Part shown: piece after piece, positions 9,810-51,623 of the stretch
How the letters are laid out: the number at the start of each line of letters is the position of its first letter
Position numbering within the stretch: position 1 is the first letter of the stretch
Source: a virus
Length of the DNA: 53,557 nt
Reading direction: 5' to 3' (one strand)
IMG/VR virus record: IMGVR_UViG_3300031963_000203
Coordinates: 1 to 53,557 of that record
Notes under the pieces: model-generated
Databases searched by the model: none
What the model saw: only the letters and a program-made list of their open reading frames with translations
Told to the model about the DNA's origin: nothing
Made by a program: the position numbers and the translations under genes

Positions 9810-9990
9810 ATTCTCTTGTTTTATTTAGTCGCTCAATTTCAAGCTTTACCCTTTGTTTTAAGTTTTCAAGCGCAGAATCATCAGATAGCATAGACATCCT
9901 GTGCTGAGTGTAGTGCTCGATCTCTTTTTCCAAATTGGAAAGGTTGTTGTGCACCTCATTGTATTGCTGTATAAACCAGTTTTTATTCAT
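9772..9990 (-). CDS. Small coiled-coil protein
   Basis: This 72-residue, highly charged helical protein (YNEVHNNLSNLEKEIEHY and later heptad-like leucines) has no recognised domain. Its ATG overlaps the stop of the long fibre gene as ATGA, and its end overlaps the start of the next gene, so translation is probably coupled across all three. T4-like phages often place small chaperones or coiled-coil partners next to fibre genes. A fibre assembly helper is therefore one option, and a regulator of the neighbouring membrane protein is another. The sequence itself does not decide between them. Confidence 0.6.
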   Translation of the reverse strand: MNKNWFIQQYNEVHNNLSNLEKEIEHYTQHRMSMLSDDSALENLKQRVKLEIERLNKTREYERRFFNYEERK

Positions 9991-12917
9991 GATACACGTC
10001 CAAACTCACATACCCTAAATGAGTAATTTCCAGTACCCTCCAATAATATGTAAAACTGACAATCCGCCGGAACAATTGCTGTCCATGAATTGCCACCGCC
10101 ATTTGCTCTGCCTAGGATATAGAAATTGGAAGCATCAATATCCTCTACATATATGTCTGTCGATGGAGACGTTCCGCTACTAGTCATTCCATAAATTATC
10201 ACATCCCGTTGATAAGGACCAAGGTATGTTATCGAAGAAGTAGTGTTAGTAGTATATGATCCGCTACTAAAAGAAGATAGATATCTAACAGAACTAGGCA
10301 TGCCAGTAACAGTACAATTAAAACCGAGTGAATCTCTTATCATTTTGAGAGGTCCTGCTAATGTAATGTTTTGGTTATTAAACATAGACAGTCCACCACT
10401 ACTGATGTACGTACTGTTTATTATAGTTGTTGCACCTTTAGCCTGCTCAGAATATAAATAAATATCATTCGATCTTTGTCTAAACAGAGTATATCCTGTT
10501 GGACCCTCAGCCGTAGAATTGAAAGCTTGGTCTATATTAAATGAAATGCTCCCAGTTACATTTAAATCACCTCCAGTAACATTCACATCACCATTAGTAA
10601 CATTTAAATTACCACCGGTTACATTTACATCTCCATAAGCTAATATAGCATTGCTAATAGCAGCTGCTCCAGAAACTGCAAGTACAGCATCATTATCAAT
10701 AGTAGTCCCTATGGCTACGTTTTCTCCAGTATCAGAGACATAGAATCCTGTAGCAGGACACGTTACTCGTTCATTATCCTCAGCTGCTGTGTATTTAGTA
10801 GCTCCAATTGCCAACGCAACGCTTTTGTTTTCGTTGCCCTTTCCAGGAACAGCAGCCTGACTTTTAAATGATGTAATTTCTAAACCATTCGGGTAGTTAA
10901 ATGGATACGCTCCAGTTATTCCCTGCCAGTAAGCAGAAGATGGAGGTACATAAACGGAGTTTCCTAAATTTCTGTGAATCTTAAGCATAGAAATTGCTCC
11001 AAATTGACCTGTACTTGATTTAGCTCCCCCCAAAAGAGAAACTGGATCAGTAGTACCAATAGTTTGGACTCCTACTATTGATAAAGCATGGTTTGGCTCG
11101 TTCCATCCTCCGGATGTTCCTTGAAAAGAAATAAGCGAAAGACTAGGAAAAGTAGCAAAAGTACTTAAATTACCAGTAAGACCCTTAGGTTGAACCGAAC
11201 CAGACATTGCACCAATAACAGTAGTTCCATACCAAGGATCCGGTGATTGTGGTCCAGGATAAGTTGCAATCGTTCTGTTACCAGAAAATCCCAGAGATAT
11301 TCTGTTGCTGTCATATTGTCCAGTAGAATTAGCTTCTAAAATCAAACGCGGATTAGAATTCCTAGTTTGAATTGTTGTATTGTTAACAGAATTGGCGTTA
11401 TTGTAAACGCCAGCATTCATGTTTGTTGTTATGGCAAAAACGTTCGCAGTTCCTGTTGTGTTTGAAGAATCTGTAATCTTATGTTGAAAACTTAAAAGAG
11501 GTCCTGCAGTAAAAGTGTGTCCGCTAGAAAAGAATTCCTGTGTAAAATCAGGACCAGTTCCAGAAACTCTTTGAGTGGAGGATGTGATAAAATTAAAATC
11601 TATTGTTCCGTCACCAATAACTGATCTGCTGGTGAAAGTTGATCCCCCTAATGTTTTTATTTGTAAAGCTGGTCCATAATTAGGAGATGTGACCCAAAGT
11701 TGCGGATATAAACCAAGTAATTCATTAGGCCCTGTTATATTAACAGAACCACCCTCGTATCCAGTAGGATTTAATCTGCCAAATCCTGCATGACCTTGGA
11801 CATAAAAAGATCCTTTATTGTGATTTAAAGGGAAATTCACGTTCCCCGTAAATAAAGCTGCATTGTGTTCAGAAACTGTTGTGGAAACACTTACATTACC
11901 AAGTACTGATAGTCTTCTACGATCATCACCTGTGAGCTTAAATCCCCCCGTACCTATACCAAGTCCTAATCCAGTAGAGTTTACGTACAGGAAAGGATAT
12001 GACTGGTTAGTCCCCCCATTATCACTGACCTCGAAGAATCCATATGTTCCTGAGGAAGCATCTACTAAAGTTCCTTTGTTTGAAGATGCTGTGCTTAGAA
12101 GTACATTATCAGCAGATGAAACAGCAGAAATTTCAGCACTTGAACTTAAATTAATTCCACTATTTAGAACAGTACCCGGAGATTTTATTAAAATAGATCC
12201 TGTAGGATTTGTGAATTCTATATCCCAGTATCCCTTGGGTCCAGGAACTGAAGTTCTCCATTGGAAATATGGATTATAATTGCTATTTGAACTTGCAGAT
12301 CCCCCTGGATCGACATCGAATTCTGCGTGACTAAAACTTATAAGTTTTGTTCTACTATCCTTAGTTGAAATTTTAAGTTTAGAATTCTCGAAATTTAAAT
12401 TTTGTATAGGCGTTCCTGCAGGAGTATAGTCAGAAATAGTAGAATCCGATAAAACCACTGTTGAATCATTTGAAGCACCTGCTATCATTATAGCATTCTG
12501 TGTGCCTCCCCCTGCTATTGAGATCGGAGCAAGATTCTGAAAAATATCCCCTGCTGCTAATCCAAATCCAGTATCTGCCCACCCGGTGGAAGTGTAAACA
12601 TATATGTCTTGGTCAGAAGATGCTGGATCGAGCCAATAATCCCCTAATGTTGGGAAAAGGAAAGGATTAGAACCTGATATTGATCCAAGGGCTGGTGTGA
12701 CATCTTGAACAAACCATTTGCTTCCAGATGGTCCTTGGAGGCCTTGAACCCCTTGCGGTCCCTGTGGTCCAACTGGACCAGTGGCTCCAGCAGATCCTTT
12801 TTGTCCCTGAGGGCCTCCACCTGCACTTAGTATCTGATCAAAGTTGTAATTAATCTTATCAACTATGGTTGATTGATTATCGCCTTGTAATATATTTAAT
12901 ACGTTTATTTGGGGCAT
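9987..12917 (-). CDS. Long fibre-like virion protein with collagen-type segment
   Basis: This 976-residue protein looks like a virion fibre. Its N terminus (residues 3-30) has a motif ending KINYNFDQIL that is echoed in the 305-residue protein at 25105-26022, probably a shared attachment module. A collagen-like Gly-X-Y segment follows at about residues 36-66 (GPVGPQGPQGVQGLQGPSG). Then comes a long stretch rich in Ser, Thr, Gly and Asn typical of beta-structured fibre shafts. A short 7-residue repeat lies at about 762-788 (consensus NVTGGDL). The C-terminal ~100 residues are compact, with SFRVCEFGRVS at the end, and could be the receptor-facing tip. It follows the CHAP gene by 8 bases. No chaperone-type autocleavage motif was recognised. 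Receptor unknown. Confidence 0.8.
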   Translation of the reverse strand: MPQINVLNILQGDNQSTIVDKINYNFDQILSAGGGPQGQKGSAGATGPVGPQGPQGVQGLQGPSGSKWFVQDVTPALGSISGSNPFLFPTLGDYWLDPASSDQDIYVYTSTGWADTGFGLAAGDIFQNLAPISIAGGGTQNAIMIAGASNDSTVVLSDSTISDYTPAGTPIQNLNFENSKLKISTKDSRTKLISFSHAEFDVDPGGSASSNSNYNPYFQWRTSVPGPKGYWDIEFTNPTGSILIKSPGTVLNSGINLSSSAEISAVSSADNVLLSTASSNKGTLVDASSGTYGFFEVSDNGGTNQSYPFLYVNSTGLGLGIGTGGFKLTGDDRRRLSVLGNVSVSTTVSEHNAALFTGNVNFPLNHNKGSFYVQGHAGFGRLNPTGYEGGSVNITGPNELLGLYPQLWVTSPNYGPALQIKTLGGSTFTSRSVIGDGTIDFNFITSSTQRVSGTGPDFTQEFFSSGHTFTAGPLLSFQHKITDSSNTTGTANVFAITTNMNAGVYNNANSVNNTTIQTRNSNPRLILEANSTGQYDSNRISLGFSGNRTIATYPGPQSPDPWYGTTVIGAMSGSVQPKGLTGNLSTFATFPSLSLISFQGTSGGWNEPNHALSIVGVQTIGTTDPVSLLGGAKSSTGQFGAISMLKIHRNLGNSVYVPPSSAYWQGITGAYPFNYPNGLEITSFKSQAAVPGKGNENKSVALAIGATKYTAAEDNERVTCPATGFYVSDTGENVAIGTTIDNDAVLAVSGAAAISNAILAYGDVNVTGGNLNVTNGDVNVTGGDLNVTGSISFNIDQAFNSTAEGPTGYTLFRQRSNDIYLYSEQAKGATTIINSTYISSGGLSMFNNQNITLAGPLKMIRDSLGFNCTVTGMPSSVRYLSSFSSGSYTTNTTSSITYLGPYQRDVIIYGMTSSGTSPSTDIYVEDIDASNFYILGRANGGGNSWTAIVPADCQFYILLEGTGNYSFRVCEFGRVS
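10554..10633 (-). repeat. Four-unit 21-base in-frame repeat in fibre gene
   Basis: Four consecutive 7-residue units with alternating consensus DVNVTGG / NLNVTNG / DVNVTGG / DLNVTG are encoded here. The units differ at synonymous and non-synonymous positions, so the expansion is not brand new. It sits in the shaft part of the fibre protein and probably adds beta-strand rungs. Confidence 0.8.
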
Positions 12918-39718: not shown

Positions 39719-40828
39719 TTAAACCTCCGCTAATTGTATTTTGAAGGAGGATAAGTCAACGTTCGAAACCGAGCAGTTCACAAATTGACCAACCTCATAC
39801 TCTTTAATTGACTTCATTAATCTTTCTCTTTCGATCAATCCATTGAGACCATTTTCTAGCTTAACAAAAGCACCGAAAGTCTTGATTTTTGTGATTTCAG
39901 CTTTATAAGTTTTAAGCTGTGTGTCATCCCCAACTACTTCAGAAGAAGAATCTTTAAGCTCCTGAATGCTTTTAAGTTTCTCGTTTGGCTCAGTAACCGA
40001 TAGAGTAATCCTTTGTGGATTCTTAATGTCAGTTACAAAGAAAGTTACGGGGTCTCCAGTCTTCAGACTTTGGAGTTTAGCAGAGTTAGCTTCGTCAAAA
40101 GGAATAATACCAGTGAATATTTCATCCCATTCAACAAACACACCGTTACCAGAAGCACCTGTAACTATACCATCATACTTGTTAGAGAAAGAAAGTTTTT
40201 GAACCTCCCCGTCAATAATTTTTCTCAAGTACTTTTTAAATGATACTACGAAAATGTCTCTTTTCTGATCATAAATCTCAACCATTACAGTGAGTTCTTT
40301 TCCAACATAATCTGCAAAATTCATGATTCTGTTTGCAGCAGCTAAGCTTCCGGGTAAGAAACATTGAATTCCTGAAAGATCGACCATAAATCCACCGTTA
40401 CAAACTTCTTTTACTTTAACTTTGAAAGCACAATTATCATCCTTGATTGCTCTATGAAGTTCAGACTTAAGAGCTTTTTCGTATCCTGCTGAAACAGAAC
40501 CATAAAAAGCACCTGAAGGATCTTTATGTACAACAACTTCTAAAACCTGTCCCTCTGACATTTCGATCAAAGGATATCCTAATTTCGTAAGACTTTTTTG
40601 TTCTTTGTTTGTATCGATAACAATGCTTTGACCAAACTGAGTCTCCCCAAGAGCTATGCCTTTTTCTGTGTCGTATCTGCTAATAATAACTCTAGTTGAG
40701 GAGTTATTTTTTAAATCCTTACCTTCTGTTTGGTTGATATCCTGTGGTAATGATTTCTCGTATAGTTTTTCTAGTACATCTCTTTCACTTTCATCGTAAT
40801 CGAAGTACGTGTAATTGTTCCTTTTCAT
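39719..40828 (-). CDS. Ribosomal protein S1-like RNA-binding protein
   Basis: This 369-residue protein carries three clear S1 (OB-fold) domains and one degenerate one: about 45-115 (weak), 134-198, 217-279 and 307-369. The second contains GGFMVDLSGIQCFLPGSL, very like E. coli S1 domain 2 (GGFTVELNGIRAFLPGSL), one of the domains that hold S1 on the ribosome. The last has TYKAEITKIKTFGAFVKLENGLNG, in two parts typical of RNA-binding S1 repeats. It could steer host ribosomes to phage mRNAs or protect phage RNA. It lies at the end of the baseplate operon and directly before a strong terminator. No other translation gene is near. S1-fold assignment is firm; the role is inferred. Confidence 0.85.
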   Translation of the reverse strand: MKRNNYTYFDYDESERDVLEKLYEKSLPQDINQTEGKDLKNNSSTRVIISRYDTEKGIALGETQFGQSIVIDTNKEQKSLTKLGYPLIEMSEGQVLEVVVHKDPSGAFYGSVSAGYEKALKSELHRAIKDDNCAFKVKVKEVCNGGFMVDLSGIQCFLPGSLAAANRIMNFADYVGKELTVMVEIYDQKRDIFVVSFKKYLRKIIDGEVQKLSFSNKYDGIVTGASGNGVFVEWDEIFTGIIPFDEANSAKLQSLKTGDPVTFFVTDIKNPQRITLSVTEPNEKLKSIQELKDSSSEVVGDDTQLKTYKAEITKIKTFGAFVKLENGLNGLIERERLMKSIKEYEVGQFVNCSVSNVDLSSFKIQLAEV

Positions 40829-40886: not shown

Positions 40887-43800
40887 TTAATATTTTTTTA
40901 CATTAAATGCTTTTTGTAATTCGGAAGGGAGTTCAGGAATTGGATAAACTGGATCAGCTGCACCTAAGAAGAATTTAAATAGTCCAGAAACATCAGCTGC
41001 ACTTCTTAAAAATTCATCGATATAGACAACATAATAAGCGTTTTTAAGGCTCATTCTTCTCCATGAGGGATGGTCATCTGATAAGATGATTGGATTAATT
41101 AAGTTTATAACATTTCTTCCTAATAATACTGTAAGTGGCCATGGAATTTTGGTAAGTATATTCGAAGACAATTCAACTGCAGGATTTACTATATTTCCAA
41201 GTAGTGGGGATTTTGGCAAACCCTTAAAGTATTTCCAGAATAAGCTGTAAACTATTCTTGCAGGAGGGGGTGCACCCATTCCAATTAGGGCTTGTTCTAT
41301 CATGTCGGTAGGTCGAGCTTTTGGTATAACTGGAATTTGTGTCAGATTTAAAAAATCAGGGATATTTGGAGACTCTGGATTTAAACTCTCTCTAACTAAA
41401 TTCCTAGCTATTTTCTGAATATCCTGCGGATTTAAATTTGTAAACTTAGGAGAATCTATATTATCAATTTCAGGAAGCAGTTGCTCTAATAAACCTCCAT
41501 CTAATAAGGATGTTACTGTTTCAATAATAAAATTCTTAATTATAGTACCAGGTATAGTTACCTGAATTATTCCACCTAAACCTTGTGTTTGTGAAACTTG
41601 ATCTTGTTTGGGAGGGAAAACTGTAGGGATTTCAAAAGCTGAGATAGCATTACCAAAACCTCCATTAAGTGATTCCAAGCAACAATACGGACCTTCGGGA
41701 TGCGGAAAATCAGAAACTAAAGGTTCTTCAAGGTCCAGAGGTCTTTCGGGATCAAATGGACCCCTTCTAGAAAGTCCTAATTTTTTCGATATTAATTTTT
41801 TTAAATCCTTAACTCTTATAACTAGAATTGGATTTTCTCCATCATACCTAACATATCTTGAGAAGTCCTCTCTTGAATATATTATTTTAGACATACCCTC
41901 CATAATCCTTAGGTACATCGCAGTAAGAAGAGGATTTTTAATTTTAATAATTTTGAGAGGAACAGGTGCAATATTTGAAACTTGAACAGGAGGAAACACA
42001 AAAGGTCCTTGTTTTTCACAATCATCAATTATTGAAAATGCTCCCTTTCTAACTTTTTTAATTACCGAGAATTTGTTTCCCTTTAGTATAATATGGGTTA
42101 TTGCAAGAGATGCTGATCTAATTTCTTTAACTAGATCTTCAAATTCTTCCTTTTCCATAGTTCTTGGATCCTTATCTAATCTCAAGAAAATTTTATTCGG
42201 ATTCGAAACGTTTAAGTTGTCCAAAATATATTTGGGTGGAGAAGGTACTTTGATTAATTTAAGAACCTCCCTCATTTCGTCTTTGAAGTTAATACTGTCC
42301 CCACACTTTAACGGTACAAAACTAGCTTTCATATCCTTAAGAATTCTCAAAGACTTAACTATTCCAGGAACGTCGATTTTAAGCTTGTCTTTATCCTGTG
42401 GGTAATAAATGGATTTAGGATTAGGTATCCCTGTTTTTAAATAATCCTTTATTACAGTTTTAAGAGTTTCCTTCCTTTGTGCAATTATTAATTCCAACTG
42501 CTCTCTTTCTTCATCCACGTTTGGCTGAGGAACGTCCAGCAGTGCTGCTTTTTTGTCATACTCTTTCCTTTTTGATAAAATCGAATTCTTAAGGTCTATT
42601 TCTCTTTGTTGTGCTTCCCTTAAAGCTTCAATATTACCAGGAGGAGGAACACTGTCAAAAATTTTTGTCAGATTAGTTTGAAGATCACTAAGAATCCTAT
42701 TTGGAGAATCCACGTCATCTTGTCCAAAACCTGGGAGTGGAATAAGTTTATCAGGAATACCAAAAGAAAGAATCTGCTTGATTTTTTCAAGAGGGTCTTT
42801 AAGTTCAGGATCAGATTTTCTTGGGATAAATCTTGGACCTCTGATTCCTGTTAAGAATAAAGAACTTCCAGTTATAAACTCCTTTAAGTACACTAGAGGA
42901 GTAGGCATAAAACCTCCAATAAATGGAATGAAAATTACGATTACTCCTAAATTAAGTGGAAGTGGAATAATAATAGGATCTACTATTGTCCATATCATAG
43001 GCAAAGGGATCCTAATAAAAGGCTGTCCGTCCACAGGATTAGGTACAGGAATAGGAATAAAAGCAGGTGGTAAATAACCAACCGGCCAATATTTTAAACC
43101 AAGTCTCACTGATGGTCCTCCAGAAAGAAAGAAACTAGTTTTTTCAATTGGAGGCAATCCATTAGGATACGGCAGTAACCCAACTTTAGTTACATCTTTA
43201 CAAAACTGTTTCCACCAACATCTTTGAAATATAGTTGGACAGTCCGAACTAGGTGGGGACGATGTTAGATAATTAGCATATTTAAAATCCGATCCAGCTG
43301 GACCACAGCATTGCGGTGGACAATTAACTGAATTTCCGTTATCAACGTTTCCTCCATCGCCATCTCCAGCACCACCAGCACCCGCACATTTAAGATCAGA
43401 AAACTCCTTATCCAAAGCTTCAGGAGTAAGGGATTGCTCGTTTTCAGTTCTTTTCTGTGCTGCAATGAGCATCAGTTCTTCAATTTGCTCTATCTTTTCT
43501 TTGATGTTAGTAAAATTTTCAAATATTCTAATTCCGATAACATCTAATAAAGGCAAAGTGTTTCCTAGTGCATTTCCAGCCTGTCTTGCTAATCCTTTTA
43601 TTTCATTGAGTTTAGGCTCGACATAAACCTGTTTGTTTTGTTGGTATTTAGCATCCCATTTAGGTTTAAAGTTTCCATAGAAATCTGTGAAAACTTCATT
43701 AGGTTCGCCATCTGCAGTAAAAGTACCAGGTCTAAGCTTGCTTGGATTCCTAGCATCGTTATCTCCTCTTTCCTGTGGAGAAAAGAAAAGCCAATTTGAG

Positions 43801-46136
43801 GCAGATTTTTCAATAAGCTCACCATAAAGAATTCCCCTGTCCTCGTTAATCTGGTTTATGATAGTCTGTTTGGATTTATTCGTATTCAATACATCTTCAA
43901 AAAATCCGAAAAAATCTCCAACATCAGGAAATCCAGTTTTAAGGTTCACAATTTCTAAGAATTGGTAAGAAGCCAAATATTCCGTGGAATATTCAGCTAA
44001 TAAACCACCATTACCTGCGTGTTCGTTTCCTAGTTTGATTTTTTCTTGGTCTGGTTCAGGAACTTCCTGCAAAGGATTTGATGGCTCCCCAGTCATAGAA
44101 ATTTTACCAGGTTTTTTGACATTCTTATAAGGTAAAGGATCTCCTAGATCAGACATGAAAGACACCTTAAATTGAAGTTCAGCCCTGGCCCTGTTAAATT
44201 CTGGTCTTGCAAATCGAACAGAAAATTCTTGGATCTTGTTTATAAAAGGGTATCCATCTGTGGCATATTCCTCGTTACTGCTAGAATATGCAGAGAAAAC
44301 CCTCTCATTACGTTCAAGTTGAGCACTAGATTGTCCATATAGATCTCCTGAATCACCTGATGTTCCTATGAGCGCAGCTTCTATATCATTAAGGTCTAAA
44401 TCTCTTCCAGTTCTTGATTGTAGTGTTTCGATATTAGCATTTTTAAGTGCTGTGAGTTCATTTTTTTGGTTTATTAAAGAGTCAACAAAATCTTTTTTAA
44501 CCAGTATGTTCCTAATCGATTCAATATTAGTTTCAAAAGAAGCTAATCCTTCGTCCAATCGATAAGCTTGTTTTGATTGATCAAAAGCAACCGGAGAGTT
44601 TCCTGCTTCGATATTTTCTTTAAATAAGTCCTTTAGGTCTTTCCTTTCAAGTTCAGTATCAGCAAAGGAAAGGTCGAACAGTTTTCGCGTGAAAACTGGA
44701 TTATTAGAAAGGAAGAGATTATAAACGTTTTCTATATCAGTAACTTCTTGCTGTACTTGTTGTTCCAGAATTGGTTCTTGGTCAGTAAGGGTTAAAATTG
44801 AAATTCCAAGTTCGTAATCACTAAGAGATCCTCCATTCGAAAACGGAAATCTTAATTGCCAGGCATCTTGCAAAGACTTTTGGTATTCGAATATGATTTC
44901 ATAGTGATAAAGAATTTCCTCTAGAAATCTTTCTATAACTTGCCAACGAGCTGTTTCCTTATTTTTTTTATCTATTTTGTTAGACTTTTCTAATGCAGAG
45001 TCTATACATGCTTGGATTGCATCAACATCTACATTAGCTGCTGGTGGATCCTCCTGATCAACATTGGATCCTGTCAAGTCATTGGATCCTGTCAAGTCAT
45101 TTATTCCAGAGAAGTCAAAGGCAGGTGGATCGCAGAATTCTCCAGATATCTCTTCAACATCAGATTTGGTTGATATGATGTCTCCAGTAATTGGATCTTC
45201 AGGAAGGCCTGGATCGCAATCATCATTAATGATAGGATCATCTCCATCCGGAAAAAAATTAGCATCATATCCATCTTGTCGATTTGATGCGAATCTTCCC
45301 AGTCCTGAAAAGTTTCCATCACTGTCGAATTCCAAACCTGATCCTTCCCTTGAATCATTTTCTGGATCATTCTCTGAATCATTATCAGCATCTCCGTTTA
45401 AATCCAGATCTTTAAAATCACATTTTTTAGAATTTTTAAGCTGATCTCCTAGAACTCTATTAATATCACTGAGGGCTTGGTCATTTGTAATCGAAGGTCC
45501 TCCAAGTTTAACATGGACAACTCTTTTACCTGACATTATAAATTCCAAAGGAATTTTGTATCCAAGAATATTGAGCTCTCTTTTTTTCTTTGCACCTGAA
45601 TTTGAGGGTTTTCCAAGTACTAGAGGATCAAGATTGTCGAACAAAGATTCGTTTGTCTTCTCTAAAAATTTGGGGTCCTTTTGTCCAAGAAATTTCACAA
45701 TACCTGTTGAAGAAATATCCCGTTCTTTTTTGAAAGTTGGAATATTTGTTTGCACGCCCAAATCATCCACTATAAAGGTCTTTTCGTCTAAACTACCAGA
45801 GTTTTTGAGTTCTTCGTATAAGTCCCTGTTTTCAGTCTTTAATGATTCCAACAGAATTTGAGAATATAAAGAATCACCTTCATATTTACACGCCAGGTCT
45901 TCTATTTTAGAAAGAGGAATAGGTGGTGGTCCTGGCTCAAGACTTTTAATAAGTTCCTCTACTTCTTTTTCAGATTTTTCAAGTTCTTTATTGAATCCTT
46001 CCTCTGATTGTAAATCCTCGTAAGGTAAATCAATTTGTTGACCAGTAATTGTTTGTACTATTTGCTCAGTAGTAAGATTTTCAAAATCTTGACCAAGTAA
46101 ATCATCTATTCTTGATTCTATACTTTCAGATGCCAT
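40887..46136 (-). CDS. Very large baseplate-region protein (1749 aa), unassigned
   Basis: This 1749-residue protein of unknown family lies between the spike and the S1-like gene. Visible parts are: an acidic helical N terminus (residues 1-110); an Asp/Asn-rich low-complexity stretch at about 240-330 (DADNDSENDPENDSREG), suggestive of calcium binding; helical regions around 400-600; a Cys-containing, Pro-rich and hydrophobic section at about 985-1090 (NCPPQCCGP, then IIIPLPLNLGVIVIFIPFIGG); a long charged helix near 1170-1230; and several Pro-rich turns. Length and hydrophobic segments would allow a tape-measure-like or membrane-interacting role, but the Pro content argues against a simple tape measure. 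A strong Shine-Dalgarno (GGAGGA) overlaps the end of the spike gene. Confidence 0.7.
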   Translation of the reverse strand: MASESIESRIDDLLGQDFENLTTEQIVQTITGQQIDLPYEDLQSEEGFNKELEKSEKEVEELIKSLEPGPPPIPLSKIEDLACKYEGDSLYSQILLESLKTENRDLYEELKNSGSLDEKTFIVDDLGVQTNIPTFKKERDISSTGIVKFLGQKDPKFLEKTNESLFDNLDPLVLGKPSNSGAKKKRELNILGYKIPLEFIMSGKRVVHVKLGGPSITNDQALSDINRVLGDQLKNSKKCDFKDLDLNGDADNDSENDPENDSREGSGLEFDSDGNFSGLGRFASNRQDGYDANFFPDGDDPIINDDCDPGLPEDPITGDIISTKSDVEEISGEFCDPPAFDFSGINDLTGSNDLTGSNVDQEDPPAANVDVDAIQACIDSALEKSNKIDKKNKETARWQVIERFLEEILYHYEIIFEYQKSLQDAWQLRFPFSNGGSLSDYELGISILTLTDQEPILEQQVQQEVTDIENVYNLFLSNNPVFTRKLFDLSFADTELERKDLKDLFKENIEAGNSPVAFDQSKQAYRLDEGLASFETNIESIRNILVKKDFVDSLINQKNELTALKNANIETLQSRTGRDLDLNDIEAALIGTSGDSGDLYGQSSAQLERNERVFSAYSSSNEEYATDGYPFINKIQEFSVRFARPEFNRARAELQFKVSFMSDLGDPLPYKNVKKPGKISMTGEPSNPLQEVPEPDQEKIKLGNEHAGNGGLLAEYSTEYLASYQFLEIVNLKTGFPDVGDFFGFFEDVLNTNKSKQTIINQINEDRGILYGELIEKSASNWLFFSPQERGDNDARNPSKLRPGTFTADGEPNEVFTDFYGNFKPKWDAKYQQNKQVYVEPKLNEIKGLARQAGNALGNTLPLLDVIGIRIFENFTNIKEKIEQIEELMLIAAQKRTENEQSLTPEALDKEFSDLKCAGAGGAGDGDGGNVDNGNSVNCPPQCCGPAGSDFKYANYLTSSPPSSDCPTIFQRCWWKQFCKDVTKVGLLPYPNGLPPIEKTSFFLSGGPSVRLGLKYWPVGYLPPAFIPIPVPNPVDGQPFIRIPLPMIWTIVDPIIIPLPLNLGVIVIFIPFIGGFMPTPLVYLKEFITGSSLFLTGIRGPRFIPRKSDPELKDPLEKIKQILSFGIPDKLIPLPGFGQDDVDSPNRILSDLQTNLTKIFDSVPPPGNIEALREAQQREIDLKNSILSKRKEYDKKAALLDVPQPNVDEEREQLELIIAQRKETLKTVIKDYLKTGIPNPKSIYYPQDKDKLKIDVPGIVKSLRILKDMKASFVPLKCGDSINFKDEMREVLKLIKVPSPPKYILDNLNVSNPNKIFLRLDKDPRTMEKEEFEDLVKEIRSASLAITHIILKGNKFSVIKKVRKGAFSIIDDCEKQGPFVFPPVQVSNIAPVPLKIIKIKNPLLTAMYLRIMEGMSKIIYSREDFSRYVRYDGENPILVIRVKDLKKLISKKLGLSRRGPFDPERPLDLEEPLVSDFPHPEGPYCCLESLNGGFGNAISAFEIPTVFPPKQDQVSQTQGLGGIIQVTIPGTIIKNFIIETVTSLLDGGLLEQLLPEIDNIDSPKFTNLNPQDIQKIARNLVRESLNPESPNIPDFLNLTQIPVIPKARPTDMIEQALIGMGAPPPARIVYSLFWKYFKGLPKSPLLGNIVNPAVELSSNILTKIPWPLTVLLGRNVINLINPIILSDDHPSWRRMSLKNAYYVVYIDEFLRSAADVSGLFKFFLGAADPVYPIPELPSELQKAFNVKKY
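45063..45098. repeat. Two perfect 18-base tandem copies
   Basis: ATTGGATCCTGTCAAGTC occurs twice in direct succession without a mismatch, encoding DLTGSN twice in the 1749-residue protein. Perfect identity suggests a recent slippage duplication in the acidic linker region. Confidence 0.85.
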
Positions 46137-46138
46137 TG

Positions 46139-47014
46139 TTATCCTCCTGTTGCTCCTGTTCCTCCAGTAGCAGAACTAGGTAAAGATACAGGTTGGCTAT
46201 TTTGTGCTGGGACTGTAGGAAGGTCTGGTAAGTTTTCCCTTGTTACCCTTACTGTCTGACTAGTTGCAAGCTGTTCAAAGCTTTGTGCTAATGTGGAACT
46301 TACACCAGGTGTTACTGGAAGTTTAGCATCTACTGCGATGGCTAACTTCTTCAGAAAATCCCAAAGAGGCTCAGCACAAATCGCTGAGAAAACCGGGGAA
46401 TGTCCGAGGTTGGTAGTTTTTCCGTCCATCCAAACTTCCTCAGAAGAATGCTTAATTCTAGTAACTGCAGTATTCTCTATCTCTTGGTCAGCATACTTAG
46501 TGATTTTACCTCCTTTTAGCTCAATAGACGAAGTATCGTCCGCATGAGTGATCAATATCGAGTTATCGTTTCGAATGATGATTTTGGACTCCTTTAGATC
46601 GATTACAAGACCTTTCTCTACAGTGTAATAAATTTTTAATCTCTCGATTCCATCATAAATAAGGGAATGAGCTCCATCGTAACTTGCCCTGATTTCATCG
46701 ATGAGATCTGGAGAAAGTTCCTGCACTGCTTTGTATTCTGGACTGTAATAGTTGCCATTATTGAATTGGACGTGTACAACTGAACCTAATTTAGGAACAG
46801 ACATTCTTCCAGATCCTCCACCTAGACCATAACTCATATCAAATCTTTGGTGTGACCAGGGCAAATCCTCATCACCAACCCCATCATAAACTCCGAATAT
46901 CCTAATTTTTGCTCTGCCTTTAAATTCTGGATCTTTGTTGTCAATTACAACACCTAGAAAGTGAGCAACTTCAATATTACTATCAATTAAATGTTCTCTT
47001 GATATCAGTGTCAT
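46139..47014 (-). CDS. 5: gp5-like spike protein without lysozyme domain
   Basis: This 291-residue protein has an N-terminal OB-fold typical of gp5/VgrG spikes (about residues 17-97: FLGVVIDNKDPEFKGRAKIRI, in two parts, then VPKLGSVVHVQFNNGNYYSPEY). Short repeating beta-strands follow at about 125-190 (LVIDLKESKIIIRNDNSI, SSIELKGGKI), which look like the triple beta-helix of a spike stem. The tail is Ser/Gly-rich (SSATGGTGATGG). T4 gp5 (575 residues) carries a lysozyme between OB and helix. Here the OB runs straight into the stem, so there is no lysozyme. It follows the repeat-bearing hub-region gene and precedes the 1749-codon gene by 2 bases. Confidence 0.85.
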   Translation of the reverse strand: MTLISREHLIDSNIEVAHFLGVVIDNKDPEFKGRAKIRIFGVYDGVGDEDLPWSHQRFDMSYGLGGGSGRMSVPKLGSVVHVQFNNGNYYSPEYKAVQELSPDLIDEIRASYDGAHSLIYDGIERLKIYYTVEKGLVIDLKESKIIIRNDNSILITHADDTSSIELKGGKITKYADQEIENTAVTRIKHSSEEVWMDGKTTNLGHSPVFSAICAEPLWDFLKKLAIAVDAKLPVTPGVSSTLAQSFEQLATSQTVRVTRENLPDLPTVPAQNSQPVSLPSSATGGTGATGG

Positions 47015-47030
47015 ACTAAATTATAGAATT

Positions 47031-49988
47031 TTAAATGCTAGGGTTTTCATTGTTATTTGATTTAGGGTAAACTCTTCCAAGGTTTACTGGGGCTGAAGGA
47101 GGAACATTATATTCCGCGTTACCAAAAGCTCTTGGGTAAATTCTGTCAGATCCTCCTAAGAGAGATCCAGGTACATTAGCGTAAACGTCCTCATTTGTTG
47201 GTGGATATTGTCTTTCTGGTGCAGAGAGCGATGATCCAGGTACTGTAGGGAATTCATCGGGAGCTTTTGCTCCGGGATAAGTTCTTGCTGGTGCACCTAA
47301 ATCTATTCCTGGAACAGTTGGATAGGAGTCATCGTTGACTGATTCGTACACTCTTCCCAAACCTCCAAGATCCCGACCAGGAACCCCTGTGTATTCATCT
47401 TTTGGTGTGACTGGTTTGTATTCTCTGGTAGGTGCTCCTAAGTCTTTTCCAGGCACATCAGGATAAACATCACCATCTGGAGTTTTGTAAACTCTTGCTA
47501 GTGCACCAAGTTCCGAACCAGGTACGTTTTTGTATTCATCTTTAGGAGGAGGAGCATTATAAACCCTTTCAGTCCCTCCTAAATCAGGTCCAGGAACTCC
47601 CGGGTAAGCATCACCCTTAGGTTCATCATAAATTCTTCCCAGTGGACCTGAATCTTTACCAGGAACTTCAGTGTACTCATCTTTTGGTGGAGGTACTTTA
47701 TATTGCCTATCAGGTGCTCCCAAGTCGGGTCCAGGAACCCCTGGATATAAGTCACCAGTAGGCTCAGAATATACTCTATCAGGAACACCCAGATCTTTAC
47801 CAGGTACTCCTTTGAACTCATCACCTGCAGGAGGGCCAGGATAGGCTCTTTCTGGTGCTCCAAGATCTGTGCCTGGGACATCCGGATAAACATCACCTTT
47901 TGGTTCTGTATAAGCTCTTAAAGGAACGCCTAAATCTGCACCGGGGACATCTGAATATTCATCATTCCCTTGTACATTTGGATAGAGTCTTTGTGGCGGG
48001 CCAAGATCCGATCCAGGTACATTATTATAAAGATCATCATTAAGAGTTGGATAAACTCTTTGAGGAACACCAAGATCTGATCCAGGTACATCGCCATATT
48101 CATCAGAGTTTACTGGTGGATATTGTCTATCAGGAACACCTAAATCATTTCCAGGTACGTTTCCGTAAACATCAGAATTTATTGTTGGATAAACTCTCTG
48201 TGGAACTCCAAGATCTGGACCAGGAACGTTATTATATTCGTCTGTAGAGACTGTTGGATATTGTCTTTCTGGAGCGCCTAAATCAGTTCCAGGAACGTTG
48301 TTGTAAACATCATCTTGAAGATTGGTTGTTCCTGCTCCTGAATTGGGTAAAACATTTCCAAGATTTTGTCCAGCTTGTCCGTTAACATCAGGATACACAT
48401 CCGAATTTATTGTTGGGTATTGTCTTTCTGTAGGACCTCCAAGTCCTCTAGCTTGTGGCGTGTTGTCCTGGAATGGGTTAGGAACTCCTGCTTGGATAGT
48501 GCTCACCAAGCTTTGAACACTGGATAAAGCTTGTCCTGCATTTACACCACCTAATCCGTAAATATTTCCAAGTAACGCTCCCTGAACGATGGATACACCT
48601 TGATTAGTTAAATCTGCAACAGTATTGTTAATAAAGTTAGATGCAAGTTCTGCAGCAAACTGTCCTGCATTTCCCCCGGGATCCACAAAAGCATCACCGA
48701 ATCCAGTGCTGTTAGCGTAATCTGAAAAATTGTAATCTGACTTAGGGTTTTCCCAAAGATCAGAAATAACCATGCTTTTGATGTTATCGTTTTTCTGAAT
48801 GACATCTGCTAACTGATTGAACTGAATTTTATGATCCCTTACTCTTCCCACGTGTATCTTAAACTTTGTGGAGACTGATTGACCTCCTTTGTTGTCAATT
48901 GACGCATAAGAAGGAAATGTTTCATCGAAGTCAAATTCACACTGATCAAATTGGTAAATGAAAGCATAAGGTCCTAAAGTATAAGATCCGAATTTGTCAT
49001 TTCCCGGATCTTCGGCATTTGTAGATCTTTGTAAAAGTCCTTCTGTATTATTCAACAAACCAGTTTGGCTATTAAAGCTATCTAAAAAGTTAGCTGCTTG
49101 TGCTACAGAAGGAATCTGGAAAGGGTTCAGAATATCGTTGATTCCATATGTGAGTTGAATATTTCTTATCTCAGTTACTATCAGCCACATTCTGAACTTT
49201 CTGAGATTCTCAGGGAGCATAACTCTGTGGTAAGTGTAGTCATAAATAGCCTTTCGATAAAGTTCTGAAAGACCAAATATTCTCATGTCGATTGATTCTA
49301 AACAATCTATGCTTAAAGTTCCTGCCCTTTTTGGAATACTTCCCTTTTTGTGGTAATTTTTGATATCAGTTTTTAAAAGCTGATCTAATCCACTAACATT
49401 TTGGAAGTAGTATGGACAATTTTTATTAACGAAATCTAATCCCCTTTTAAAAGCTTCAAGCATTTGCTGTCTTTTCTGAGATCTTTGATATAAAAATTGT
49501 TGTGCTCCCATATAGGCAAGAGGGGAGTTAGCGGGAAAGAATCCATAATTTGCTCTGCTGGGAATTTTTCCCTTTGATCCATAAAAATAATCTTGGGAAG
49601 TTCCAAATCCTGAATTTGTAAGATTTTGTATATCATTAGATATTCCGGTAATATCTGAAGGATTCTTTCCACTTCTGAGTGCTTCTAATGTTCTTGCCTC
49701 AAGATCTCCTGCAGCCGCGTTAATGTTACCAACACCATTAGCTGAATAAGATCTAAATAACGGGGAAGGGGCTAAAAAGGTTTCCTCGTCTATTAAGGAA
49801 TTGTTCCCAAAGTCGAACATAAACTTGAAATAGATGTAGGTAGGATCTTCTTTCTTTCCGTGTTTCGTAGATGAAATTCCCTTCAGAAATTTCTCTCTCT
49901 GGAAATCTATTTTTCTGTTTAAGATATCTCCAGTAGGTAAAACGTTACCAGCTAATCCTGAACCAAAATCCGATATAAAATCTGCCAT
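47031..49988 (-). CDS. Hub-region tail/baseplate protein with 17-unit Pro-Gly repeat tail
   Basis: This 985-residue protein is in two halves. Residues 1-~510 form a globular virion-type region (YIYFKFMFDFGNN; CLESIDMRIFGLSELYRKAI; LPENLRKFRMWLIVTEIRN; then FKIHVGRVRDHKIQFNQL), with alternating strands that could be a tube-like or tube-cap fold. Residues 565-961 are 17 tandem units of 23-24 residues, consensus VPGxDLGxPxRxYPxxxxDxYxx. A degenerate unit lies at about 500-520 and another at the C terminus. Units alternate between those ending DEY/DEF and those ending DVY/DLY. The gene lies between the gp27-type hub and the gp5-type spike, which suggests a central baseplate or tube-end location. 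Function of the repeat tail is unknown. Confidence 0.72.
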   Translation of the reverse strand: MADFISDFGSGLAGNVLPTGDILNRKIDFQREKFLKGISSTKHGKKEDPTYIYFKFMFDFGNNSLIDEETFLAPSPLFRSYSANGVGNINAAAGDLEARTLEALRSGKNPSDITGISNDIQNLTNSGFGTSQDYFYGSKGKIPSRANYGFFPANSPLAYMGAQQFLYQRSQKRQQMLEAFKRGLDFVNKNCPYYFQNVSGLDQLLKTDIKNYHKKGSIPKRAGTLSIDCLESIDMRIFGLSELYRKAIYDYTYHRVMLPENLRKFRMWLIVTEIRNIQLTYGINDILNPFQIPSVAQAANFLDSFNSQTGLLNNTEGLLQRSTNAEDPGNDKFGSYTLGPYAFIYQFDQCEFDFDETFPSYASIDNKGGQSVSTKFKIHVGRVRDHKIQFNQLADVIQKNDNIKSMVISDLWENPKSDYNFSDYANSTGFGDAFVDPGGNAGQFAAELASNFINNTVADLTNQGVSIVQGALLGNIYGLGGVNAGQALSSVQSLVSTIQAGVPNPFQDNTPQARGLGGPTERQYPTINSDVYPDVNGQAGQNLGNVLPNSGAGTTNLQDDVYNNVPGTDLGAPERQYPTVSTDEYNNVPGPDLGVPQRVYPTINSDVYGNVPGNDLGVPDRQYPPVNSDEYGDVPGSDLGVPQRVYPTLNDDLYNNVPGSDLGPPQRLYPNVQGNDEYSDVPGADLGVPLRAYTEPKGDVYPDVPGTDLGAPERAYPGPPAGDEFKGVPGKDLGVPDRVYSEPTGDLYPGVPGPDLGAPDRQYKVPPPKDEYTEVPGKDSGPLGRIYDEPKGDAYPGVPGPDLGGTERVYNAPPPKDEYKNVPGSELGALARVYKTPDGDVYPDVPGKDLGAPTREYKPVTPKDEYTGVPGRDLGGLGRVYESVNDDSYPTVPGIDLGAPARTYPGAKAPDEFPTVPGSSLSAPERQYPPTNEDVYANVPGSLLGGSDRIYPRAFGNAEYNVPPSAPVNLGRVYPKSNNNENPSI
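47106..48296 (-). repeat. In-frame tandem repeat array, 17 units of about 70 bases
   Basis: Seventeen in-frame units of 69-72 bases encode VPG(x)DLG(x)P(x)R(x)YP(x)4D(x)Y. Units differ in both DNA and protein but keep the Pro-Gly, Asp-Leu-Gly, Arg and Tyr positions. Odd-numbered units end in DEY or DEF and even-numbered units in DVY, DLY, DAY or DSY, giving a second-order period of about 46-47 residues. Confidence 0.92.
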
Positions 49989-49997
49989 TTCTTTCTT

Positions 49998-51623
49998 TTA
50001 TTTTCCAAATATATCGCTCTTGATGCTTCCTATATCTTCCTGCAAAATCGAAGAAGCATTTTCTACAAGATCATTAAAGTTCGGATCATTCTCTTTAGGA
50101 TTTAAAGGAGAAGGATCAGAAGCAATTCCAGGATTGAGTGACCATTGCTTTTTGCCTAAAAGCAAAGTTTGGTGCATTCCATCTTTTTTATTGTATTCAA
50201 TAGTGAAACCAAGTACAACATAATTTCCTGACAAAAAAGTATTCGGTACTCTTTTATCTGGTGGTGGTGCTAATGAGGTTCCGTCACCACCTGCGGCAGT
50301 GTATTTTGAATCTCCGGAAATAGTGCTACTTCCCTCTTGAACTATATTAACAGGAAACGTTTGTCCTCTATAAATAAATGGTGTCCAAGCTCTGTTCTTA
50401 ACCTTAAGAAGAATTTTATAACTATCGTTCCTATTTAAGATATTCTGAACTTGTGCTTGCTGAAAATTTTCATGAACATTATCGAAATAAATTGTTCCAG
50501 CGTAAGTGTTTTTAACTTCCTCTTTATAAAGAGATTCACCTAGTCTTCCTTTGTTCAAAGCGTCTCTTGCCCCTAAATCTCTATTTGTAACAGACTCAAT
50601 TTTATAGCTAACGAACTTATTTTTGGGTTTGTCAGATGTCAGATTGGAGTCGTAAAATTGAAGATTTTGAAAATATCCTATATCATTATTAATTTGTCCA
50701 GCATTGTGCTGTAATGACATTGCTGTGATAAATAAAGGGGATTTACTATAGCTCGTTTGGTTTGTTAATAGAATCGGAAACTCAACCTCAGCAGTTTCTG
50801 CACCAGGCGCTAAATCTGGAGTGTAGTCCGCTCCATAAGCCATTCTTATCGTTTCGATTGTGGAATTTTGTTCATCAAACTGTTTTTTTAAATTAACAAG
50901 ATTCAAGTTGTAATATTGATCAATCCAACAATCAAAATAATCTTGTTCTCCTAACCAAGAACTATTGACAATGTGTTTTATTGCGTTTTCGTATTCAGTA
51001 CTTGGAGAAATCCAAGTCATCGAATCATTTGTTTTTGGTTCATTAGAAGCGTATCCTAGATTTAATTCTTCAGCCATTTTAATTAAAACATCAGAACTTG
51101 TTCCTTTGTAAGCTGCAGAATTATGCCTATATAATTTAGGAATTCTAACTTCGCCCTTGACTGTATAAGTTTGGAATCTTCCAGTAGAGGGTTCAAAGTT
51201 ATTTTCATCACTCACTGTGTTAGCTCTAGAAAAAGGGGAAATGACCTCAGTCACAATGAAGTCCATTCTTATAGGCTTAAACATTTCACCTAAAGCCCTG
51301 ATATAAATTGAAAATATGTCGCCATCCTTAGGAAAGGATGTGAAAATAAATCTCTCGTCGATCGTTTGAAATCTGAATATTGCGGTGGGTTTGAATCCTG
51401 TCATATCCAATTGAAAATATGATAGTCCCTTTACAATAACACTATTAATCCGGATCAGTGGCTCTGCCATACCGAACCACTTCTTCTGGATATTATTTGA
51501 TTTTTCATCATTTACTTGAGTGTTGCCCTCTTGCGATGAAGTATCAAGCACAGAAAGTTCGTCCAGAAATATATCAGGATTGCGATATTGGAGAATTGCT
51601 TTTCTTACATTAAATTCTGCCAT
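49998..51623 (-). CDS. gp27-like baseplate hub protein
   Basis: This 541-residue protein has the layout of phage hub proteins (T4 gp27, phage P2 gpD, VgrG N-terminal half). Beta-domains are followed at about 174-245 by the diagnostic stretch GTSSDVLIKMAEELNLGY, then SPSTEYENAIKHIV and FDCWIDQYYNLNLVNL, where a short helix supports the next barrel. A Gly/Ser-rich loop lies near 430-455. T4 gp27 forms a trimeric ring that joins tail tube to the gp5 spike. Here the hub gene is separated from the spike gene only by the repeat-bearing 985-codon gene. It starts 5 bases after the LysM-like gene. Confidence 0.8.
   Translation of the reverse strand: MAEFNVRKAILQYRNPDIFLDELSVLDTSSQEGNTQVNDEKSNNIQKKWFGMAEPLIRINSVIVKGLSYFQLDMTGFKPTAIFRFQTIDERFIFTSFPKDGDIFSIYIRALGEMFKPIRMDFIVTEVISPFSRANTVSDENNFEPSTGRFQTYTVKGEVRIPKLYRHNSAAYKGTSSDVLIKMAEELNLGYASNEPKTNDSMTWISPSTEYENAIKHIVNSSWLGEQDYFDCWIDQYYNLNLVNLKKQFDEQNSTIETIRMAYGADYTPDLAPGAETAEVEFPILLTNQTSYSKSPLFITAMSLQHNAGQINNDIGYFQNLQFYDSNLTSDKPKNKFVSYKIESVTNRDLGARDALNKGRLGESLYKEEVKNTYAGTIYFDNVHENFQQAQVQNILNRNDSYKILLKVKNRAWTPFIYRGQTFPVNIVQEGSSTISGDSKYTAAGGDGTSLAPPPDKRVPNTFLSGNYVVLGFTIEYNKKDGMHQTLLLGKKQWSLNPGIASDPSPLNPKENDPNFNDLVENASSILQEDIGSIKSDIFGK

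Follow-up and report, generated by a model that had tools for sequence, protein, structure and literature searches.

A two-phase motif array on a putative tail-tube-fold baseplate protein, with unlike periodic tails on its homologues in further giant phages

Background

What purpose might a long, strictly patterned repeat tail serve on a phage tail protein? The question is raised by a gene in the window, i.e. the whole stretch of 53,557 nucleotides analysed here (IMG/VR virus record IMGVR_UViG_3300031963_000203). An earlier note on this DNA, made from its letters, took the gene product for a hub-region protein and proposed that its repeats could form a flexible tether, a strap or a ladder binding a repetitive partner such as the tape measure or the collagen-like fibre; it also suggested modelling them with a protein of 1749 residues. 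We report that the array is real and conserved, that it is longer than was then stated, and that it belongs to a wider pattern in giant phages.

The array appears to be an unannotated and repeatedly evolved element in the tails of very large phages, attached where tube assembly seems to start. Among the matches listed in a search of the open-access PMC literature, by titles and abstract openings, there was no paper on it, and neither 'tail' nor 'baseplate' occurs in the main text of the first Lak phage paper (PMC6784885). If the strap reading favoured below is true, what keeps giant contractile tails together, or how their length might be measured, becomes testable, and the array supplies a clear set of motifs for binding studies.

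The carrier gene and its neighbourhood

The features on which the analysis rests are the following, all on the minus strand.

47031..49988, minus: carrier gene (putative tube-fold domain plus repeat array), 985 aa; ORF call
48756..49859, minus: globular domain, aa ~44-411, putative tail-tube fold, gp54-like; AlphaFold2 models, VIA-align to 9f4a_BQ (Z 7.9) and 5iv5_BG (Z 7.6)
48555..48572, minus: LGNIYG motif (aa 473-478), preceded by a helix that AlphaFold2 predicts with low confidence (aa 441-476); sequence
48297..48488, minus: degenerate N-terminal units or cap, aa ~501-564; sequence
47106..48296, minus: two-phase array of 17 units, aa 565-961; unit alignment, autocorrelation
48001..48312, minus: repeats visible in the DNA itself, 69 bp (one unit) and 138 bp (two units); TRF
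47034..47105, minus: C-cap with NLGRVY, aa 962-985; sequence, [LI]G[RK]xY in 32/34 array proteins
46139..47014, minus: gp5-type OB (spike base) gene, next downstream of the carrier; phrog_430, E 1.9e-14
49998..51623, minus: 541-aa upstream neighbour of the carrier; phrog_35886 (unknown function), E 3.4e-16, conserved order

At E 0.1 the 985-aa ORF matched nothing in Pfam or PHROG. The order of carrier and OB gene is conserved in relatives, both array-bearing and several array-less: the OB gene also adjoins the carrier homologue in PTm1 and pT24 (both as annotated) and in L085, L086 and L087, none of which has the array. The window also holds a gene with baseplate wedge matches, and the carrier thus lies among baseplate genes. 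Neither the window nor the relative G005 yielded a firm tape measure, ten proteins searched giving one weak match (E 0.0012), and a comparison of T4 gp48 with the 615-aa upstream neighbour in G005 led nowhere.

The carrier domain resembles tail-tube proteins

The carrier was modelled with AlphaFold2 from 28 sequences, and its N-domain alone from 30. The first model is partly confident in the N-domain; the second has a mean pLDDT of 56.5 and a pTM of 0.54. VIA-align ranked 9f4a_BQ, a T4 gp54 homologue, first for the N-domain model (Z 7.9, rmsd 5.4, 170 aligned) and 5iv5_BG second (Z 7.6, rmsd 5.2, 162 aligned), the latter apparently also gp54, judging by its matching residue range; the 50 matches listed are mostly phage tube, tube-initiator or T6SS Hcp chains. 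Foldseek alone gave no match under E 0.001 against the PDB (best E 0.058), and in BFVD ten models matched at E under 0.001, nine of them named uncharacterized and one without a name. An hhalign profile comparison with T4 gp54 gave a probability of 0.3%.

We therefore assign a tail-tube fold to the globular domain with moderate confidence, the VIA-align Z scores being under 8. With the same moderate confidence, we consider the carrier gp54-like in its fold and in the position of its gene, though not in sequence, which refines its earlier description as a hub-region protein and supplies a likely fold for a protein that matches neither Pfam nor PHROG. In T4, gp48 and gp54 form the platform on which the tube polymerises around the tape measure (PMC3004832, PMC8718954). 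The carrier shares with these initiator rings the predicted tube fold, a gp54 homologue being the best match, and a place among baseplate genes. Unlike it, T4 gp54 (320 aa) and gp48 (364 aa) are too short for such a tail, and the carrier has no detectable sequence similarity to gp54.

Sequence and phase of the array

Following the globular domain, the motif DxY..VPGxDLGxPxRxY recurs, its two versions taking turns; the start of this series is conserved and so, in most relatives, is its end cap. Seventeen tandem units of 23-24 aa occupy exactly 47106..48296 on the minus strand (aa 565-961), as the earlier note had it. This is the canonical core of a longer array: with degenerate N-terminal units and the C-cap, the whole spans about 47034..48488 and comprises about twenty motifs. 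The cap word [LI]G[RK]xY is found in the last 45 residues of 32 of the 34 array proteins described below, and is missing in L078 and L084. Positions P2, G3, R11 and Y13, like V1 and Y/F23, are kept in 17/17 units; L6, G7 and D21 are kept in 16 units, D5 in 14, P9 in 12 and P14 in only 9.

The strict two-unit alternation, with a true period of 46-47 residues, was borne out by several measures. E stands at the centre of D-x-Y in 9/9 odd units and 0/8 even units; when the order of the units was shuffled 20000 times, the observed difference between same-phase and opposite-phase identity was reached 14 times; and unit identity is higher at lag 2 (0.605) than at lag 1 (0.551). The protein's autocorrelation is highest at lags of 47 (z 20.6) and 23 residues (z 17.2), levels reached in 0/500 shuffles.

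At the DNA level the units have diverged, with a mean pairwise identity of 0.59 (range 0.44-0.79). TRF detects a 138-bp repeat (79% matches) at 48046..48312 and a 69-bp repeat (70%) at 48001..48230, and no DNA-level repeats elsewhere in the array. As these repeats are confined to 48001..48312, the first few units seem younger than those after them, and this stretch is probably the youngest part.

The array is Pro/Gly-rich with Tyr and Arg, proline making up 16% of its residues. Three arrays searched against Pfam gave a best E of 0.56, and a search of PDB sequences a best E of 0.46; neither value is significant, which by itself does not make the array new. The T4 gp5 triple beta-helix is built of tandem octads VxGxxxxx; in the 483-aa array VxG occurs 20 times, about once per 24 residues and not every 8. 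Nor does the array contain any run of three consecutive G-x-y triplets, in contrast to a collagen-like fibre.

Close relatives and a likely pre-existing unit

Two IMG/VR scans returned 30 and then 51 loci, many contigs being common to both. There are 37 distinct proteins including that of the window: 34 carry the array, with total lengths of 791-987 aa and 5-17 canonical units, and three (L085-L087) do not. Three further scans with giant-phage homologues returned only near-identical loci. At N-domain identities of at least 51% the array is present in 34/34 distinct proteins, the window's included. The three array-less proteins are 29-33% identical in the N-domain, and their tube domain is 65-85 residues shorter between two anchors (97-108 residues, versus 172-182 in the two array proteins measured). 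Close relatives lacking the array and otherwise unchanged, which according to the earlier note would have spoken against its view, are therefore absent from this set. The phase is likewise preserved: over 33 of these 34 proteins, neighbouring units alternate in RxY class in 195 of 217 pairs, against 115 on average and at most 139 in 2000 shuffles.

Some of these short words also occur outside this group. The word LGN[IVA]Y follows the domain in 34/34 array proteins, and LGN[VI]Y was recognised by eye in seven array-less relatives (PAU, PTm1, L085, L086, L087, L097 and L098) and was not seen by eye in pT24, MA9V-2 or MaF61. Sphingomonas phage PAU gp255 and Tenacibaculum phage PTm1 ORF-235, the latter with a neighbouring gene whose annotation reads hub subunit and tail lysozyme, have a homologous globular domain with LGNVY at the same place; their tails differ from the window's in bearing only 1-2 such motifs and no array. 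Four array-less relatives keep a single unit-like word, e.g. DVYPNVPGTDL in L086. We scored 18 tails besides the window's with a profile of 209 distinct units, using 200 shuffles per tail and no correction for multiple comparisons. The real score was matched by 0 of 200 shuffles for L098, 1 for L086, 1 for L085, 8 for L097, 8 for PAU and 12 for LR756500, while L087, PTm1 and the remaining tails did not beat their shuffles (30 or more of 200). As the unit-like word is supported in three relatives, the array looks like the expansion of a pre-existing unit.

Selection and turnover of units

We computed dN/dS (NG86) for 18 pairs; the array was computable in 17, one pair being identical. Values range from 0.06 to 0.28 over the array and from 0 to 0.14 at motif positions, where 0.14 comes from a pair with very few changes and the others are 0.05 or less, the definition of motif positions by the pattern in either sequence possibly biasing these values downward. 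Spacers exceed motifs in 13/13 computable pairs, and the array exceeds the N-domain in 10/13, i.e. the array evolves faster. From these codon comparisons we conclude that purifying selection acts at the motif positions of the array. Between the window and L003 (N-domain 89% identical), 11 of 17 units find their best match in the unit of the same index, and all 11 lie among the first 12. Together with the low dN/dS, lower still at motif positions, this upholds the proposal that the array is old and selected. Most units do not pair with the same index in L005, L029 and L040, and unit correspondence is gone at about 61-71% N-domain identity.

Elastin- and resilin-like repeats are Pro/Gly-rich and combine the VPG word with Tyr and Arg, all of which the window's array shares. 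It might accordingly be regarded as a passive spacer or elastomer grown by replication slippage, for which composition alone matters, an idea that the loss of unit correspondence and the unlike arrays of other lineages (see below) would suit. Position-specific conservation, the consistently lower dN/dS of motifs, the two-phase order and the unit-like word in some array-less tails all argue against it; so does the absence of any VPGxG pentapeptide from the 483 residues, which have instead a two-phase order and a long-range register. We regard this explanation as improbable.

Predicted disorder and an aromatic lattice

AlphaFold2 modelled the array without secondary structure, at pLDDT 26-45 over 10-residue blocks. 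Tandem repeats of tape measures are mostly alpha-helical; no helix was modelled over aa 503-985, at low pLDDT. The C-terminal tail of about 480 residues is probably intrinsically disordered, a prediction of which low AlphaFold2 confidence alone is no proof.

The aromatic residues are nevertheless regularly placed. Over 32 distinct tails of the window's clade, Tyr/Phe spacings are most often 15 (374) and 8 (345), followed by 7 (67) and 9 (39). In 32/32 tails the strongest Fourier component of the 6-10 band has a period of 7.55-7.8 residues, against 0/300 random placements for each, random placement being a weak null for duplicated sequence. The lattice of about 7.65 residues may partly arise from duplication itself. 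Its register is kept where 30-residue units replace 23-residue ones, with a spacing of 15,7,8, and its coherence is weak in 5/32 tails (L040, L015, L078, L003 and L067, where power is below half the number of aromatics). A lattice of about 7.0 residues was found in Lak phages (2 and 5 of 300 random placements), and none in LR756501 or LR756504 (78 and 202 of 300).

Such coherence, with L(DLG)-Y(RxY)-Y(DxY) spaced about 7-8-8 by eye, could point to a regular fibrous fold, for instance a three-sided solenoid with faces of about 7.67 residues, a turn of 23 residues and Leu/Tyr/Tyr at the lattice points. We doubt that such a fold exists, given the AlphaFold2 model without strands at pLDDT 26-45, the 16% proline, and the mixture of unit lengths within single arrays (23 and 24, or 23 and 30 in relatives).

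Other giant phages bear different arrays on this carrier

Some giant-phage homologues of the carrier, found by tblastn, also bear long periodic C-terminal arrays. Three Lak tails of 785-827 aa peak at lag 14 (z 22-28), LR756501 (735 kb) at lag 14 (z 12.3) and LR756504 (636 kb) at lag 15 (z 9.9), all with 0/500 shuffles. The periods (14, 14 and 15) differ from that of the window, and the units are unlike the window's and one another's: unit profiles of Lak, LR756501, LR756504 and the window each recognise their own array and none of the others. Homology of the Lak array to the window's, suggested by eye from NLDKPDQNY and DLGVPDRVY, failed the profile test in both directions. Since the arrays are mutually unlike, periodic tails on this carrier either arose several times or diverged beyond recognition, and one partner shared by all does not follow.

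Autocorrelation found no clear periodicity in PAU, PTm1, pT24, MA9V-2, MaF61 or LR756502, and a weak one in LR745206 (lag 16, z 4.4, 0/500) and L098 (lag 34, z 4.2, 2/500). Nor does an array follow from large genome size, an idea that we also rejected: LR745206 (635 kb) and LR756502 (642 kb) have the carrier and no clear array. With two such phages of about 640 kb, an array is evidently not needed in every giant phage.

The 1749-aa neighbour

The gene for the 1749-aa protein (40887..46136, minus strand), whose middle is hydrophobic and Pro-rich by eye, is present in all 36 of the array-bearing loci examined and missing from L085-L087. Homologues occur in distant giant phages: one of 1264 aa elsewhere in the genome of L085, one of 1301 aa in G007 (the record of L098), and a weak 89-residue match (E 3.3e-4) in Lak-B5. 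No match was found in 2 of 6 records (fragments of 6 kb and 46 kb), in 6 of 8 records of a second set, or by tblastn in the phages collection. We tried and rejected two links to the array. It is not specific to phages with this neighbour, as the 1264-aa and 1301-aa homologues lie in genomes whose carrier is array-less; and the length of the array tail does not track that of the neighbour (rho 0.18, p 0.40, n=25, with rows sharing the same three lengths dropped, neighbour lengths taken stop-to-stop and the window left out). A role of the 1749-residue protein as a special partner is thus not supported.

How the array may work

We give roughly even chances to a reading in which the array is disordered and acts as a multivalent docking strap attached to a ring resembling the tube initiators. 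A baseplate protein with a tube fold, most like T4 gp54, would bear a disordered tail in which a short motif has been amplified. Each motif would dock into a pocket of a partner that the tail contains in repeated copies, perhaps tube or sheath subunits, baseplate wedges or the tape measure. If the carrier is part of the virion and forms a hexameric ring, up to six tails, one per ring subunit, would strap the base of the tube to that partner by avidity. The tether, strap or ladder of the earlier note is compatible, in these general terms, with the predicted lack of structure combined with constraint on the motifs.

The array might instead lie inside the tube lumen, where it would bind the tape measure, anchor it to the baseplate and aid its release. 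This would suit the location of the carrier gene within the baseplate block and the role of T4 tube initiators as a platform for tube growth around the tape measure, as given in PMC3004832 and PMC8718954. It is unlikely, in our estimation, since the search for a tape measure in the window and G005 produced one weak match (E 0.0012) and no firm candidate, and the large neighbour is present in array-less genomes, its length being uncorrelated with that of the tail.

We attach very little probability to a multi-stranded ruler or strap that would run from the initiator ring along the contractile tail, with a repeat number related to the rings spanned, and that would have evolved several times in giant phages: one step of 14-15 residues (two lattice units of about 7.65), stretched to about 2.7 A per residue and so somewhat short of full extension, would cover one ring of about 40 A, ring heights being 38.5-42.8 A for three siphophage tubes (PMC8718954).

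Other observations in the window and related records

The OB protein (46139..47014) is shorter as the array tail lengthens (rho -0.62, p 0.0009, n=25, kinship ignored). Within the tail gene block lies an S1 RNA-binding protein (39719..40828, minus strand; Pfam S1 E 1.2e-18, 3 stretches), whose gene is present in 36/36 array-bearing loci examined and also in L087. Elsewhere in the window, a 976-aa ORF (9987..12917) has a 21/42-bp tandem repeat at 10552..10636 and weak matches to tail-fibre and collagen-like PHROGs. Two tandem proteins in L099 (13355-14944 and 14948-16621) both match phrog_213 (portal protein), with E 1.6e-56 and 1.5e-57. In L101-L102 (G005, about 47-67 kb), some two dozen small ORFs lie upstream of the tail genes, several of which resemble sugar-nucleotide or glycosyl enzymes by eye.
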